Assembly (NCBI RefSeq): GCF_023913515.1
Contig: NZ_CP099392.1
Span: 124,001-188,000 of the forward strand
Direction of reading: 5' to 3'
DNA: 64,000 nt
From: Natronococcus sp. CG52
GTDB lineage: Archaea > Halobacteriota > Halobacteria > Halobacteriales > Natrialbaceae
Below are positions 2,262-27,504 of this stretch, one piece after another (position 1 is the first letter of the stretch; each line of letters begins with the position of its first letter). The translations under genes were made by a program, and so were the position numbers. The notes under the pieces were generated by a model. That model was not told the origin of the DNA, did no database searches, and saw only the letters and a list, made by a program, of their open reading frames with translations.

Positions 2262-3761
2262 ATGACCGATAATCACGACTACTATACTCCCGACAAGGGA
2301 ACGATCGACTGGCATACGTTGTTAAACGACAACTTCCGTACGATCGACACTGACGTTGAAATTCGTGATACCGAAGCGAACCTCGAGGAGTACGAGCCGA
2401 AGCCCGGTTCGAAATTTTTCGCGACTGACACGGAGAACGTGTTTTTCGGGAACGAGACCCGGTGGCGTCCCGCGTCTACGTCGGGACACGAACCGAGGTT
2501 CTCGTCACTCGAAAGTAACGAGGTCAACACGGTACGGACGCCAGCGCCGGAAGATGGTGTCGCGGGGATCAACGATGCGATCGACGAACCGGGAGTCACA
2601 GTTCACCTCCGCCACGGCGTCTACGAGGCGAACGAGCAACTCGAGATTCCGTACGACAACGTGACGATTCGGGGGGGCGGACACAAATCGCCCGAAGCGC
2701 TGACCGGAGCTGTCGAAGAGCCGGGGACGACTATCCGCCGAGAGATCGACGACGCCGTCGTCGCCCTCACCGGTTCTGCCGTCAAAAGCGTCGCGTTCCT
2801 CGACTTCCACGTCGACGGGAACGGTGACGAAACGGACGGCGGGAACGTGTTCGATCTCGGCACCTACGCGCCGTACGCTCGATTCGAGAATGTCTCCTGT
2901 CAAGACGTCGACGGACACGTAATCACCGGTGACATGATCCACAACTTTCGGTTGTTTCACCTCACAGCGCGGGATCTCGGCGGCTATCTCGTTCGCATCG
3001 AGCAGACGGGGAATATCAACCCGTCGTGGGGAACGATGATGAACTGTCGCGTCACCGGGGTCGACGACGAACGCGGGGACGGCGTTCTCGATGCTGACGC
3101 GCTCCACCTCTCGACGCTCATCAACTGTACCGCCGACGAAACGGCCGACGCAGCGTTTCGCATTCGAGACGGGTTCAATAACCTGGTACTCAACTGTGGC
3201 GTCGAAAACGCACGCAGCCACGGGTTCGAACTCGGTGATCAATCCGAAGGACTGCAATACGACGGCGGCGTCATCGCCGCGTGTTGGCTTCGGGGCGCCG
3301 GCGGTTCAGAGGACGGGCTTCACATCAGTAACGGTGTAAACGTTCGATTCGAAGGCAACACGATTCAGGACTTCGGCGGCGACGACGTCCGGATCGTCAA
3401 CGGTGAGCGACTCGATTGGGGTCAAAACGCGATCGAGACGCTGACGAGCGACGTGGAGCTCCCGTTCGCCGAGGGACAGTCAGTTCGACACGATAACGAG
3501 ACCGAGATCGCCCACGTCGACTTCGAGGATCGCGAACGATTTGTCGTTCGAACTGGAGGTCCCATTCGGTTTTTCGATGCGAGCGAGAACCCCGCCCTGA
3601 CGATTGGCGAGGGACGGACCGATCTCGAGGGGACCGATCTCAGGAACCTCGCAAAGTACGCCGACGACGGCGAGGCCCCGGACGACACGCTGTACTTCGA
3701 CGAGACAGACGAACAGGTCGAGTACAAAGATCCCAACGGAACCGTCCACGAACTCGGATGA
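2262..3761 (+). CDS. Right-handed beta-helix (pectate-lyase-like) protein
   Basis: A 499-residue protein. Residues 1-70 form a small N-terminal module (DWHTLLNDNFRTID, then FFATDTENVFFGNETRW) like the attachment modules of phage-tail and surface fibre proteins. From about residue 90 to 400 it shows the short repeating coils of a parallel beta-helix (VTIRGGG, VNVRFEGNTIQDFGG). The C-terminus (LYFDETDEQVEYKDPNGTVHELG region, residues 475-499) resembles tail-fibre ends. No signal peptide or membrane anchor is visible, which is odd for this type of protein. The role could be polysaccharide lyase, epimerase or structural binding, and no catalytic residues can be assigned. A formyltransferase gene follows after 160 bp. 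Confidence 0.8.
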   Translation: MTDNHDYYTPDKGTIDWHTLLNDNFRTIDTDVEIRDTEANLEEYEPKPGSKFFATDTENVFFGNETRWRPASTSGHEPRFSSLESNEVNTVRTPAPEDGVAGINDAIDEPGVTVHLRHGVYEANEQLEIPYDNVTIRGGGHKSPEALTGAVEEPGTTIRREIDDAVVALTGSAVKSVAFLDFHVDGNGDETDGGNVFDLGTYAPYARFENVSCQDVDGHVITGDMIHNFRLFHLTARDLGGYLVRIEQTGNINPSWGTMMNCRVTGVDDERGDGVLDADALHLSTLINCTADETADAAFRIRDGFNNLVLNCGVENARSHGFELGDQSEGLQYDGGVIAACWLRGAGGSEDGLHISNGVNVRFEGNTIQDFGGDDVRIVNGERLDWGQNAIETLTSDVELPFAEGQSVRHDNETEIAHVDFEDRERFVVRTGGPIRFFDASENPALTIGEGRTDLEGTDLRNLAKYADDGEAPDDTLYFDETDEQVEYKDPNGTVHELG

Positions 3762-21392: not shown

Positions 21393-22166
21393 CTAGTGCG
21401 CCTCGAACTCGAGTTGGTAGCCGGTCGCGTCGGCGCACCTGTCCATGGAGAAGATGTAGGACATCGTCTCTTCCGGGTCGAGTCCGAACTGGGCGATGTC
21501 GCCACCGAGGGAATTCCCATCGTCGTCGGTTGTCATTCCGATTCCCTCAAACCAGATCTCAGTATCCGACGTGTTCCGCAACTCGACCCGAATGTTACAG
21601 AGGTGCGAGCCGGGATAGGACTCCCAGATGAACTCGTGATCGATGATTTCGAGCACTCCTTCTAGCTCATCGTCCATAGTAACCGTTGCCTCCATCTCGT
21701 CGTTCTCCGGTGGGTCGTTAGCCTCATTGTTTTCGTGCTCATCCTGGTCCTCATCGTCGGTTTCGCCGTCCTCTTCCTCTTGGTCCGCGTCGGCCGAGTC
21801 GTCGGTGTCATCTCTCGTCTCGTCGTTGTCCGTCTCTTCGTCGTCAGTCTCATCACCGGCCTCCTCGTCATCCGCGGCTCCTTCGTTAGGCTCATCACTC
21901 GTCTCCTCAGCGTCGTCCGTCTCGTTTCCGGATTCGTTGTCCGCCTCCTCTTCGTCTGGATCGTCCCAGTCGTCGGATTCGTTGTTCGCCTCCTCGTCGT
22001 CGGTTTCGTCCTCGTCTGTCGTCTCTCCATCGGTGAGAGAGTCCTCGTTGTCTTCGTCACTCGTCTCTGAATCTTGGCTATCAGAGTCGGTGCCGAACGA
22101 AGTACATCCTACAAAGATAGCGATCAGCGAGGAACCAGTTAATTTCGTGAAATATCTTCTATTCAT
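21393..22166 (-). CDS. Acidic lipoprotein with long Asp/Glu linker
   Basis: A 257-residue protein. The leader MNRRYFTKLTGSSLIAIFVGC has an arginine pair and a lipobox ending at Cys21. Residues 25-155 are almost wholly Asp, Glu, Thr, Ser and Asn in irregular D/E-T repeats. The last 100 residues (VLEIIDHEFIWESYPGSHLC and following) look like a small beta-sandwich of the FxLYD kind. The linker would hold the domain away from the membrane in high salt. The role is unknown. About 330 bp to its left hold no convincing gene. Confidence 0.7.
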   Translation of the reverse strand: MNRRYFTKLTGSSLIAIFVGCTSFGTDSDSQDSETSDEDNEDSLTDGETTDEDETDDEEANNESDDWDDPDEEEADNESGNETDDAEETSDEPNEGAADDEEAGDETDDEETDNDETRDDTDDSADADQEEEDGETDDEDQDEHENNEANDPPENDEMEATVTMDDELEGVLEIIDHEFIWESYPGSHLCNIRVELRNTSDTEIWFEGIGMTTDDDGNSLGGDIAQFGLDPEETMSYIFSMDRCADATGYQLEFEAH

Positions 22167-22666: not shown

Positions 22667-25600
22667 ATGACGCCTAGCCCAGAAACGAGGGTCTTCGGGA
22701 CCAACGACAGTACGGCGAATAGAATACTCAATTTGAACAGTCCACGCGAAGAGACGCTCGATCTCGGGAGCGATGACCAGGCTCAACTCAATCAGCGGAA
22801 TCGGTCCGGGATTCGCATCCGGGTAACCACCGACGTTGCTGGCCTGAAGTGCCGTCTCTCTGCAATGACCGACGGGGTCACGACGGCACACCTGACCGAC
22901 GATTCGGGAACCGTCCTCGAGCAACAGGCGATCGGCGGTCTCGAATCTGGCCAGACGTTCTCGTTTGACACCGAGCTCAGTGCCAACGAAACCTACCTGG
23001 TCTTGTGCGATGCCGATGGCCAAAGCTACACCCGGGGACGAGCCGCGGTCGACTACCCGATCGAGGGCGACTCCCTAATCGCCACCCACGGCGTCTACAC
23101 CGGCAATGGTACGCGATCGAACAGCTACCGGTACTGTATCGATCGTATCACACCAGTCGGCACGCGCAGTGAAATTGGTGGTACGCTCGATCTTGGGGAT
23201 GACGACCTCGCTCAGCCTGGCCAGCGGAATCGCTCCGGAATTCGTATCGAGACGACCGAGACTATCGACGGCCTGGCATGTCGTATTTCGAGAGAGACAG
23301 TCGGTATTATAACGGCGTATCTGGTCACCGATGCGGGAACGGTTTTGGAACGCCAAACGACCGCAACGCTCGCACCCGGCGAGAGGTTCGCGTTCGAAAG
23401 CGAGCTCGAAGCCGACACCGCCTACTGGATTCTCTGTGATGCCAGCGGGCGTACGTACACCCGGGGACGAGCTGCGGTCGACTACCCGATCGAAGGGGAG
23501 TCGCTGGTGGCGACCCGCGGCATCTACACTGGCAATGGTGCGCGATCGAACAGCTACCGGTACTGCATCGATCAAATCACGCCGGGCGGTATACGAAACG
23601 AGATCGGTGTCTCGCTCGATCTCGAGAACGACGACCAGGCGCAGTTCGGTCAGCGAAATCGATCTGGAGTTCGGATCCAGGCAACCGACGAGATCACTGG
23701 CCTGGAGTGCCGCCTCTCGGCGGAGACCGACGGAGTCACGACGGCACACCTGACCGACGACTCGGGATCCGTCCTCGAGCAACAGGCGATCGGCGGTCTC
23801 GAATCTGGCCAGACGTTCACGTTCGACACTGCACTCGAAGCTGACGAGACGTACTGGGTCCTGTGTGACGCCGATGGCCAAAGTTACAGGCGGGGCCGAG
23901 CCGCGGTCGACTACCCGATCGAGAGCGACGTTTTGGTAGCCACTCACGGCATCTACACTGGCAGCGGGGCACGGTCAAACGACTACCGGTACTGTATCGA
24001 TCGGATTCAGCCGGCCGACGCGACTCTCGAGATCGGCACGACGCTCGTGCTCGGGACCGACGACCAGGGCCAATCCTGGGCCGGGCTGACCGGTCAATCC
24101 GGGGTTCGAATCGAGACGACTGAGGACGTTGACGGCCTTGAGTGTCGCCTCTCGGCGCAGACGGAAAGAGTCGCAACGGCCTATCTGACCACCGATGCGG
24201 GAGTCGTCATAGAACGCCAAACGATCGCAGCGCTCGAAGCCGGCGAGACGTTCGCGTTCGAAAGCGAGCTCGAAGCCGACACCGCCTACCGGGTTCTGTG
24301 CGATGCCCGCGGTCGCGATTACGTCCGTGGTCGAGCCGCGGTCGACTACCCGCTCGAGAGCGACTCCCTGGTGGCTACCCACGGCGTCTACAGTGATGAT
24401 AGTCAGTCGAGCAGCTACCGGTACTGTTTCGATCGGATGAGACCCGCTAACAACGTGGAAAGCAGGGTCGGTACACTCGATCTCGAGAGCGACGAGTTAG
24501 CCCAATCCTGGAGCGGACTGACCGGTCGATCCGGCATCCGCATTCGTGCGACCGAAGATATAACCGATATAGAATGCCGTCTCTCTGCAATGACCGACGG
24601 GGTCACGATGGCGTATCTAACCGACGACTCGGGAACCGTCCTCGACCAGCAGGCGATCGATTCCGTCGAGGCCGGCGAGACGTTCGAGTTCGATATCGCA
24701 CTCGAGGGCGGCGAGGTCTACCGGGTTCTCTGTGATGCGGACGAGCAGAGCTACACTCGGGGTCGAGCCGCGGTCGACTATCCGCTCGAAGGTGATTCCT
24801 TGGAGGCCACTCACGGTATTTACGGCGGAGACCTCCAGTCCAGTAACTACCGCTACTGTATCGACCGTATCAGGACGGCTTCTACGAACCGTGGATTACT
24901 GGCGTCACTCAGGAATCGTTCGCTCGATGTCACCACCGTCGACGTCGCTGAACATCCATCGATCGACGAGAACGGAGACCTGTCTGCGGAGTTGCTCGAC
25001 TACCTCGAGAGCCAGGAGGAGGTCAACCACGAGATCGTCCTCCCGAGAGGGTCGTACAAATGGAATACAAACTTCGTACTCACTGATCCGATCGAATTCC
25101 TCGCAATCAGGGGCGATCCACGGGCGACGCTCGAGATTCGGAATCACGACGTGAGCCTCGCGTTTCAGTTCGGCAGGTGGGGGAGTAACACTCCGCCCCA
25201 GCACGTCGTCATCCAGAATCTCGACGTCGATATCAGCGACGAGCTCGAGCGGGACGCCGGGCTGATGATTGTTCACGCCGGTCGCTGTCTGATAGACAAC
25301 GTCAATCTCGTCGGTCAGCGCACTCTCCACGGACCGTATTCCGGCAACCGATATACGTTCTTGATCAATACTCGGGACGAAAATGCGACCTCGGTGATTC
25401 GCAACGTAACCGCCACAGACGGCGAGATCGAGAATCCCAATGTACCAATGCTCGGGAACCACACGATCGGATTCAGCGCCGATCCACCACACGAGGGGAT
25501 TAACGTCTGGCAACAGTGCCACGTCGAAGATTTCGTCGTTAGCGCGTACTACCTGAAAAACAGTCCCGGCGAAAACATTTTGGATCGGTCGACAGCGATC

Positions 25601-26065
25601 AACAATGGAAGCAGCGGCATCCGGCTCGGAGTGGCAGACGAGGCTCGCGATTGTAAAATAATCTTCGATGACATGTCGAACCGGAAATATGCTGGATGCG
25701 GACTTTGGTTCAACGGCGGCCAGCCAGTAGCCGAGCGAATCGAGATCGACGGGACTGATGCTCAAAACGACCTGGTGAGGGTCAATAGCGAAGCCGATGG
25801 AGGCCACATTAGGAACCTCAGCGTATTTTGTGGTCCTACTGCTGCCGCCACCACGGTGCGATGTACACGGGCATCTTTCACAGATCTCCAAGGTCTTCTA
25901 ATCGAAGACTTCGTAATCGACGATATCACTACGGCCAGCATCGGTCCGAGCGTTGTTGTGCGACGACCGGATGTAACGCTCCGGTCCGGCGTGATCTCCG
26001 TCGAGAATCGCCCGGCGTTAGGCGGTACCGAAGAGCCAGTGCTCGAGGACGTCAACTTCCAATAG
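22667..26065 (+). CDS. Giant repeat protein: five 143-residue repeats plus beta-helix domain
   Basis: A 1132-residue protein. Residues about 30-740 are five tandem copies of a domain with the pattern LDLxxDDxAQ, RSGIRI, CRLSAxTDGVTTAxLTDD, VLCDADGxxYxRGRAAVDYP and SNSYRYCIDR. Each has three conserved Cys. Repeats 1-3 carry QRNRSG, and 4-5 carry SW-x-GLTG-x-SG in the same place. From about 760 to the end it is a right-handed beta-helix (VVIQNLDVDIS, GSSGIRLGVADEARD). No signal peptide is visible. It probably binds or modifies surface glycan. The family of the repeat is unknown to me. Confidence 0.82.
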   Translation: MTPSPETRVFGTNDSTANRILNLNSPREETLDLGSDDQAQLNQRNRSGIRIRVTTDVAGLKCRLSAMTDGVTTAHLTDDSGTVLEQQAIGGLESGQTFSFDTELSANETYLVLCDADGQSYTRGRAAVDYPIEGDSLIATHGVYTGNGTRSNSYRYCIDRITPVGTRSEIGGTLDLGDDDLAQPGQRNRSGIRIETTETIDGLACRISRETVGIITAYLVTDAGTVLERQTTATLAPGERFAFESELEADTAYWILCDASGRTYTRGRAAVDYPIEGESLVATRGIYTGNGARSNSYRYCIDQITPGGIRNEIGVSLDLENDDQAQFGQRNRSGVRIQATDEITGLECRLSAETDGVTTAHLTDDSGSVLEQQAIGGLESGQTFTFDTALEADETYWVLCDADGQSYRRGRAAVDYPIESDVLVATHGIYTGSGARSNDYRYCIDRIQPADATLEIGTTLVLGTDDQGQSWAGLTGQSGVRIETTEDVDGLECRLSAQTERVATAYLTTDAGVVIERQTIAALEAGETFAFESELEADTAYRVLCDARGRDYVRGRAAVDYPLESDSLVATHGVYSDDSQSSSYRYCFDRMRPANNVESRVGTLDLESDELAQSWSGLTGRSGIRIRATEDITDIECRLSAMTDGVTMAYLTDDSGTVLDQQAIDSVEAGETFEFDIALEGGEVYRVLCDADEQSYTRGRAAVDYPLEGDSLEATHGIYGGDLQSSNYRYCIDRIRTASTNRGLLASLRNRSLDVTTVDVAEHPSIDENGDLSAELLDYLESQEEVNHEIVLPRGSYKWNTNFVLTDPIEFLAIRGDPRATLEIRNHDVSLAFQFGRWGSNTPPQHVVIQNLDVDISDELERDAGLMIVHAGRCLIDNVNLVGQRTLHGPYSGNRYTFLINTRDENATSVIRNVTATDGEIENPNVPMLGNHTIGFSADPPHEGINVWQQCHVEDFVVSAYYLKNSPGENILDRSTAINNGSSGIRLGVADEARDCKIIFDDMSNRKYAGCGLWFNGGQPVAERIEIDGTDAQNDLVRVNSEADGGHIRNLSVFCGPTAAATTVRCTRASFTDLQGLLIEDFVIDDITTASIGPSVVVRRPDVTLRSGVISVENRPALGGTEEPVLEDVNFQ
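22757..24885 (+). repeat. Five tandem coding repeats, period about 430 bp
   Basis: The LDL-x-x-D-D segment begins near 22757, 23186, 23616, 24043 and 24474, spacings of 427-431 bp (143 codons). DNA stretches such as the one encoding GRAAVDYP are nearly identical between units, so the array could change copy number by recombination. Confidence 0.85.
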
Positions 26066-26488: not shown

Positions 26489-26980
26489 CTAGAAATAATT
26501 GCTCACTTTTGGAACTGAGAGTTGTTCAAGAGCGGTATCGATCGCCGTTGTTAACTCGGCAAGTGAGTCGAAGAACCGGTTGTTAAGAGCCGTTCGAAGC
26601 TGTCTCCAGCACTCTTCGACCGGATTCAGTTCTGGAGAATTTGCTGGTAACGTGATGAACTCAAGGTCGTCACGGGCCGCTAGATCCGTGACGGCCGACG
26701 CCTGAAAGTACGGCGCTCCGTCCGGAATCACGATCAAGTCCTCTTCGAATTTACTACATAATGATAGAACGAATTGCTTGGCGTGATCGGCGGTAACGTA
26801 CTCTTCGAACCGAGCGAAAGTGCGATCACCGTCCTCGGTGATCGCGCCCAACAGACACGTCCGGTCGCGTTGCCCGGATAAGTCGACAGATGGGCGCGTG
26901 CCGCGAGGAAACCACGCGGCACGCGGCTCGACTTGCACGGATTTCTTGGTTTGATCGACACACACTATTGTGGCGTCCAT
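26489..26980 (-). CDS. IS630 transposase, catalytic part (orfB)
   Basis: A 163-residue frame carrying the DDE catalytic domain: TIVCVDQTKKSVQ supplies the first Asp, LIVIPDGAPYFQ the second, and TLPANSPELNPVEECWRQL the third acidic residue. It overlaps orfA by 16 bp in the -1 frame. It probably has no start of its own and is read after frameshifting on the A7 run at about 26992-26998. All catalytic residues look intact, so the element may be active. Confidence 0.8.
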   Translation of the reverse strand: MDATIVCVDQTKKSVQVEPRAAWFPRGTRPSVDLSGQRDRTCLLGAITEDGDRTFARFEEYVTADHAKQFVLSLCSKFEEDLIVIPDGAPYFQASAVTDLAARDDLEFITLPANSPELNPVEECWRQLRTALNNRFFDSLAELTTAIDTALEQLSVPKVSNYF

Positions 26981-27504
26981 TTCCCGCCGCTTTTTTTGGG
27001 TTCCTCGCGGAACGTTTCTCGCTCGTCAGCATCAGACTCGGCGGCTGTACGGCGTGGCTTTTGATAGCTCAATCCCGCTTCTTTCAACAACCGCCGGCAA
27101 CTCGGGACCGAGTATTCGACATCGTATGTCTCGTCAAGATACCGCTGGACGAGCGCCGTCGTCCACGCCGGCGCGTCAACCCCAACTTTCTCAGGAGATT
27201 CGTGGACAGTTTCTTCGAACTCTTGTTGCTCCTTTTCTGAGAGCTTTCGCTTTCTTCCGGACCGATGAGCATCAGTAACGGCCTGCTCAAGCGACTCGTC
27301 GGTGTCGAGTCGCTTGAGCCAACTATAGATCGTCCGTCGCTGAACGCCGTACCACTCGGCTAGTTCAGTCTGCGTGACGCCGTTTTTGTACGCTATTGCA
27401 GCTAAGAGCCGTTGTGTGGGCTTTTTTCCTTCCACGTTGCCGAGGGCATCTTGTAATTCCTCGACAGATATTTCGTCGAGATGGTCCACTGCGTTCAACA
27501 ACAA
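26965..27504 (-). CDS. IS630 transposase, DNA-binding part (orfA)
   Basis: A 179-residue frame. A helix-turn-helix lies near residues 38-70 (TQRLLAAIAYKNGVTQTELA, then WYGVQRRTIYSWLKRL), followed by a second winged-helix region (DAPAWTTALVQRYLDETYDV and PSCRRLLKEAGLSY). It ends EEPKKSGGKWTPQ after the shift site CCCAAAAAAAGC. A -1 shift there gives EEPKKKRREMDATIV, joining smoothly to orfB. Confidence 0.8.
   Translation of the reverse strand: MLLNAVDHLDEISVEELQDALGNVEGKKPTQRLLAAIAYKNGVTQTELAEWYGVQRRTIYSWLKRLDTDESLEQAVTDAHRSGRKRKLSEKEQQEFEETVHESPEKVGVDAPAWTTALVQRYLDETYDVEYSVPSCRRLLKEAGLSYQKPRRTAAESDADERETFREEPKKSGGKWTPQ

Follow-up and report, generated by a model that had tools for sequence, protein, structure and literature searches.

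In the window, the whole 64,000-nucleotide stretch of DNA that we analyzed (part of a 392,952-base contig of a Natronococcus genome), we found at 22667-26065 a single open reading frame of 1132 codons whose product joins five tandem repeat units to a predicted C-terminal beta-helix (Table 1). The best explanation we can offer for it, to which we give an even chance of being right, is a host-resident, tailspike-like protein that folds in the cytosol and both binds and acts on glycans. The architecture is new: it is leaderless, fixed in the genus and clearly connected to viruses.

Table 1. Positions of the repeat and beta-helix gene, its parts, a neighboring gene and related provirus genes (provirus positions are those of the respective loci)
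Feature	Position	Strand	Evidence
Whole gene, leaderless repeat and beta-helix protein, 1132 aa	22667..26065	+	dN/dS 0.168 against the G008 orthologue
Unit 1, variant I (NQRNRSG), Cys 62/114/157	22754..23182	+	DNA repeats, Cys positions; DUF4082 23.4 bits
Unit 2, variant I, Cys 205/257/300	23183..23611	+	DNA repeats, Cys positions
Unit 3, variant I, Cys 348/400/443	23612..24040	+	DNA repeats, Cys positions; DUF4082 20.9 bits
Unit 4, variant II (QSWAGLTG), Cys 493/545/587	24041..24472	+	DNA repeats, Cys positions
Unit 5, variant II (QSWSGLTG), Cys 637/689/731	24473..24892	+	DNA repeats, Cys positions
Predicted right-handed beta-helix part, motif SADPPHEG...W..C and R...G..D	24893..26062	+	Columns kept in 31 homologues; fold matches; pLDDT 62.8
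Tat-lipoprotein-like divergent neighbor, acidic stalk and small two-Cys C-terminal domain	21393..22166	-	Neighbor in 7/13 family loci
DUF4082-polysaccharide lyase 14 type proteins, ends of siphovirus-like provirus tail modules	L071 7762-9126, L072 3937-5274, L073 7534-8508		

The gene is real and is kept under purifying selection, as dN/dS against a 91%-identical orthologue in another Natronococcus genome (G008) was 0.168 for the whole, 0.109 for the helix and 0.206 for the repeats. A preliminary description, made from the sequence alone, had seen no leader on the protein, and this was upheld: an in-frame stop lies seven codons 5' of the ATG (the stop-to-stop frame is 1139 residues), the maximum 19-residue hydropathy anywhere in the protein is 1.16, and a hydropathy scan of the whole length found neither a Tat or Sec leader nor a sortase-type hydrophobic C-terminal anchor. 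Since related helix proteins of other genera carry Tat leaders, the protein might be an ordinary secreted one whose leader was missed through a wrong start or a frameshift; however, given the in-frame stop, and given that among the 13 family proteins all 12 readable N-termini are leaderless, with unit 1 following at once or nearly so, we rejected this explanation as highly improbable. Directly 3' of the gene (26489-27504, minus strand) is a two-frame transposase-like element, IS630-like by eye, and none was seen at the G008 locus.

The five-fold repeat of the preliminary description was confirmed at the DNA level by five 300-nt repeats spaced at 429, 429, 435 and 432 nt, with 64-83% identity to the reference copy, that correspond to units of 140-144 residues (residues 30-172, 173-315, 316-458, 459-602 and 603-742). 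Its two variants do follow one another in order (I, I, I, II, II), with QRNRSG in units 1-3 and QSW.GLTG in units 4-5. When the units are placed in a tree, unit 1 pairs with unit 1 of the G008 protein, and likewise for the other four; the array is therefore an old one, and no tandem expansion is under way. The three conserved cysteines that had been described are present in all five units, and the helix part has six further cysteines; in the family at large only Cys1 and Cys3 are near-invariant among orthologous units, Cys1 being kept in 69 of the 74 units of the multi-unit Natronococcus proteins, Cys3 in 73 of 73 (with one gap), and Cys2 in only 57 of 74. All three are found in 53 units, while 15 are without Cys2, three without Cys1, two without both, and one ends before Cys3; the substitutes are G at Cys1 and L, F or V at Cys2. 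By the alternation of residues, the strand face that bears Cys1 or Cys2 is probably the hydrophobic one. Because these two cysteines are lost independently, a three-Cys metal site or an obligatory disulfide was not supported.

The preliminary description could not name the repeat, and in calling it unknown it was partly wrong. The whole protein passes the Pfam model DUF4082 (PF13313; 45.2 bits, cut-off 28.4), whereas only three of 53 single units match it at E ≤ 0.01, the best among the matches listed (23.5 bits) falling below the cut-off. Similarly, the score to choice-of-anchor R (NF041539) was 21.3 bits, below the curated cut-off of 30, with five of 53 single units matching at E ≤ 0.01. A scan of 125 genomes with the DUF4082 model gave no match, as did its control, PDB sequence searches gave no useful match, and literature searches listed one paper on DUF4082 and none on choice-of-anchor R. 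By sequence, then, membership of the repeat in DUF4082 is marginal, and it would be a distant relative. Structure prediction of one unit, which had been proposed, was made with 53 units and gave a beta-sandwich with pLDDT 95.9 and pTM 0.91, and VIA structure matches that span nearly the whole unit included a phi812 baseplate chain (Z 12.7, 127 aligned, 2.4 Å), the lectin-like part of Cwp84 (Z 11.4), a PHR domain (Z 11.1) and the polymer-binding part of a polyvinyl-alcohol esterase (Z 10.3). In a viral structure library the unit matched H9YSX1, a protein without a name there (TMq 0.87, E 6.9e-9). We therefore consider the unit to be confidently predicted as a known fold, a lectin-like beta-sandwich, and the repeat to be an uncharacterized lineage of a poorly characterized fold and not an unknown domain. 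The units may bind sugar, although likeness of fold alone gives no function.

Fusion to a beta-helix, as the preliminary description had it, also stands. Pfam Beta_helix scored below its cut-off on the protein, and the model of this part, made from ten close sequences, reached a pLDDT of only 62.8; even so, nearly all structural neighbors listed by VIA are right-handed beta-helices, led by inulin fructotransferase and the C-5 epimerase AlgE6 (both Z 21.5) and followed by the RbmB lyase (20.9), the coliphage K5A lyase (19.6) and the Sf6 tailspike (19.2), with PL6 alginate lyases also listed and top alignments of 318-322 residues at 5.4-5.7 Å. With a strong fold match from a weak model, the C-terminal part looks like a right-handed beta-helix of the polysaccharide lyase or epimerase type. 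The ADP.HEG...W..C region is conserved in 31 helix homologues, as are R.G..D and several glycines, and since these columns are common to leaderless and Tat-exported versions, a putative active region appears to have been retained. In one genome (G002) the beta-helix parts of two copies are mutual closest relatives (95/99) despite the one being at an a-type and the other at a b-type site, which looks like gene conversion. Elsewhere in the CG52 genome (L050, 8851-10395, in the C2:330525 region) a further beta-helix paralogue is also leaderless; its N-terminus looks by eye like a coiled coil, and the protein groups weakly (84/61) with provirus and tail-fibre-like helices.

A three-Cys unit profile found 17 of 125 Natrialbaceae genomes, comprising all nine of Natronococcus and 8 of the 116 others, and a broader unit profile had matches in 26 of 392 genomes of the order. 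We counted 13 multi-unit loci in the nine Natronococcus genomes, each with 4-7 units; G004 has two copies whose frames are broken, and a copy in G005 ends at a contig edge. Several species have a copy at one and the same chromosomal site. Judged by shared clusters, four a-type loci are surrounded by polysaccharide genes; jointly, two of these have Pfam matches to glycosyltransferases, an epimerase, a nucleotidyltransferase, a flippase, an Asn-synthase-like amidotransferase, a UDP-sugar dehydrogenase and a sugar-transfer ATP-grasp protein. Polysaccharide-type genes are also found 6-17 kb upstream of the CG52 gene (a polysaccharide deacetylase and an Asn-synthase-like protein by Pfam, others by eye). 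The b-type copies occupy one conserved site beside 2-oxoacid oxidoreductase and mutase genes (by eye), not in glycan clusters. Near polysaccharide genes the window also encodes a second leaderless beta-helix protein (2262-3761, plus strand; Pfam Beta_helix 30.7 bits). Its N-terminal part is also present in other Halobacteriales, in 7 of 61 genomes when its own is counted, and the C-terminal 74 residues have matches in tail-fibre-like proteins encoded on provirus contig G095:C37 (E 7e-11).

In other Natrialbaceae we found the unit in two main settings. In the one (L075-L078 and others), a Tat leader is followed by a beta-helix and two or three C-terminal units; in the other (L071, L072 and L073; leaderless relatives occur in G076, G077 and G095), a leaderless protein encoded where a tail module ends has one unit fused to a polysaccharide lyase 14 domain. 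L071 scored 28.2 bits against Polysacc_lyase_14 (cut-off 27), and the truncated L073 gave no match to that model. IMG/VR has viral contigs with the same lengths as G077:C10 and G095:C37; the G077 and G095 provirus contigs have terminase large subunit matches of 65 and 69 bits, with further matches on the former to portal (223 bits), major head (24-32 bits) and tape measure (413 bits) proteins. In L071 and L072 the gene before the fusion encodes a leaderless beta-helix protein; its N-terminus has matches among proteins from tailed viruses of Halorubrum, and in one of the records the matched protein is encoded a few genes beyond the one for the tape measure. These findings point to a tail protein of the polysaccharide-lyase kind in proviruses of haloarchaea, for which a literature search on haloarchaea, tail fiber and polysaccharide lyase found no paper. 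A further relative in G006:C141 (L045, 6304-7689), with 37% identity to a provirus DUF4082-polysaccharide lyase 14 protein, lacks all three cysteines and carries at its N-terminus a segment resembling a membrane anchor.

The unit tree, built from a subset of the Natronococcus units with those shorter than 100-115 residues dropped and with G078 (split matches) and the broken G095:C64 left out, placed the three provirus units together with 27 Natronococcus rows (26 units of multi-unit proteins and the single-unit G003c) at 98/86, separate from the Tat-type units. At the three cysteine places the provirus units have C, C and N (3/3), among 16 Tat-type units C occurs 2, 0 and 0 times, and a membrane-anchored relative (G006x) has none; we attribute these differences to one or two evolutionary events, not to many independent ones. 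The Natronococcus helix, on the other hand, grouped with Tat-exported host helices (88/85), apart from provirus helices. Since the unit goes with the proviruses and the helix with the host, the trees argue for a chimeric protein, in which units of a lineage shared with viruses are joined to a helix of the host type, rather than for mere capture of a tailspike. The grouping would fit transfer of the unit either from virus to host or from host to virus. A lectin-like unit lineage is thus common to archaeal tail modules and host proteins.

The preliminary description had taken the beta-helix to suggest a surface role, which for a leaderless protein would call for an unusual export route of the tailocin or sortase kind. 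That reasoning is weakened because the closest leaderless relatives are provirus tail-module proteins, which need no leader. A contractile tailocin route was rejected for the nine Natronococcus genomes, none of which matched either the tail sheath or Baseplate_J (controls matched in 3 of 14), and the hydrophobic anchor that a sortase would use is missing from the C-terminus. If the protein were to be exported after all, the divergent neighboring Tat lipoprotein, which gave no Pfam match, would be a possible partner, carrying the folded protein across the membrane and anchoring it to lipid. Its family adjoins 7 of the 13 loci; its close subgroup (at least 52% identity) is in 7 of 9 Natronococcus genomes, exactly those with own-, a- or G001b-type copies, and is absent from the two with b-type copies only; its two-Cys C-terminal domain is multiplied in all nine but found in 3 of the 116 other genomes of the family; and Tat paralogues of the helix exist. 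Yet this is a candidate interaction only, the two genes are divergent and not co-directional, 6 of the 13 loci are without a lipoprotein neighbor, b-type copies have no partner that we saw, and a literature search on Tat hitchhiking in haloarchaea found nothing relevant among the papers listed. Overall we regard such co-export as rather unlikely.

We think it unlikelier still that the protein is an orphan tail part, a receptor-binding protein or depolymerase kept for, or left by, tailed viruses and released by lysis or supplied in trans. The unit lineage shared with provirus tail modules, the tailspike and lyase folds of the helix, and the tail-fibre-like C-terminus of the 2262-3761 protein would all fit this, but purifying selection and the recurrence of one chromosomal site in several species do not, nor does the finding, with proteins of three proviruses as queries, that among the matches listed no virion gene lies beside the multi-unit loci, unit and helix domains aside. 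A portal search was negative in all nine Natronococcus genomes, with its control likewise without a match. That the locus in the window is itself a provirus was not supported: the whole protein had no match in phage records, searches with the Natronococcus helix profile and with 2262-3758 gave no hit, and the three-Cys profile had none in IMG/VR, in a scan whose Cys-based patterns also miss the provirus units.

Under the explanation that we prefer, a host-resident glycan-active protein, the N-terminal array of DUF4082-type beta-sandwiches would hold an acidic surface or wall polysaccharide by many weak contacts and feed it to the lyase or C-5-epimerase-type helix, which would cut or epimerize it. 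The protein would fold in the cytosol as virion tail proteins do; as its unit lineage is common to such proteins, which fold and assemble there, the leaderless state looks inherited, and no exotic export route would be needed. Sugar binding, catalysis and substrate are all inferred. Against this explanation are the grouping of the helix with Tat-exported host helices and not provirus helices, the marginal DUF4082 membership, the weak helix model with a putative catalytic region known only as conserved columns, the position of the b-type copies between housekeeping genes (by eye), and the fact that no virion-attachment domain was evident in the protein. Location is its weakest step. A composition test leans to the cytosol, weakly, with P(exported) of 0.15 for this protein and 0.23 for a Tat-leadered paralogue. 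The cysteine content (1.86%, with medians of 0.57% for 25 exported and 0.68% for 122 cytosolic proteins in a small local set) was not relied on as a sign of a cytosolic protein because Tat-exported helix relatives also reach 1.7-2.2%. Our tentative preference is for an intracellular role, with newly made wall or exopolysaccharide as the target, rather than one outside.

To our knowledge no genes have been assigned to Natronococcus wall biosynthesis, and the wall of this genus has uronic-acid content. Because of the restriction to the genus and the polysaccharide gene context of some copies, the unusual wall glycan is a plausible guess for the substrate. The wall of Natronococcus occultus is glycosylated poly-glutamine (PMC4243693). 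A speculative reading, which we think has a small chance of being correct, is that a virus-type tail lectin array, fused to a host polysaccharide-processing helix, has become a permanent cytosolic component of the apparatus for making or trimming such a glycosylated poly-glutamine wall, which is peculiar to Natronococcus. The family, present in 9 of 9 genomes, is in any case a concrete candidate for study of the Natronococcus wall.

Compared with known systems, the repeat resembles DUF4082 and choice-of-anchor R in its collinear weak matches, with the whole protein above the DUF4082 cut-off, but single Natronococcus units fall below. It shares with the Cwp84 lectin-like domain, PHR domains and the phi812 baseplate protein a beta-sandwich over the whole unit (Z about 11-12.7) at 6-12% identity in the matches named, a likeness of fold and not of demonstrated function. 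The helix, compared by fold from a weak model, shares the right-handed parallel beta-helix of AlgE4/6, PL6, RbmB, Sf6 and the K5A lyase (Z 19-21.5) at about 8-15% identity. Like a viral tailspike, the protein has no leader and a glycan-type beta-helix, but its multi-unit loci are without virion-gene neighbors among the matches listed (three proviruses as queries). The Tat-exported beta-helix proteins L075-L078 have related, DUF4082-like units, and L078 has the helix motif ADP.HEG, but they differ in the Tat leader, the C-terminal position of the units and the want of a conserved cysteine set. The provirus DUF4082-polysaccharide lyase 14 proteins (L071, L072 and L073) are alike in being leaderless, in having Cys1 and Cys2, and in joining the unit to a polysaccharide-active domain; they differ in residing within a virus, in having one unit with Asn at Cys3, an N-terminal amphipathic-looking segment and an acidic linker, and in carrying polysaccharide lyase 14 in place of the beta-helix.
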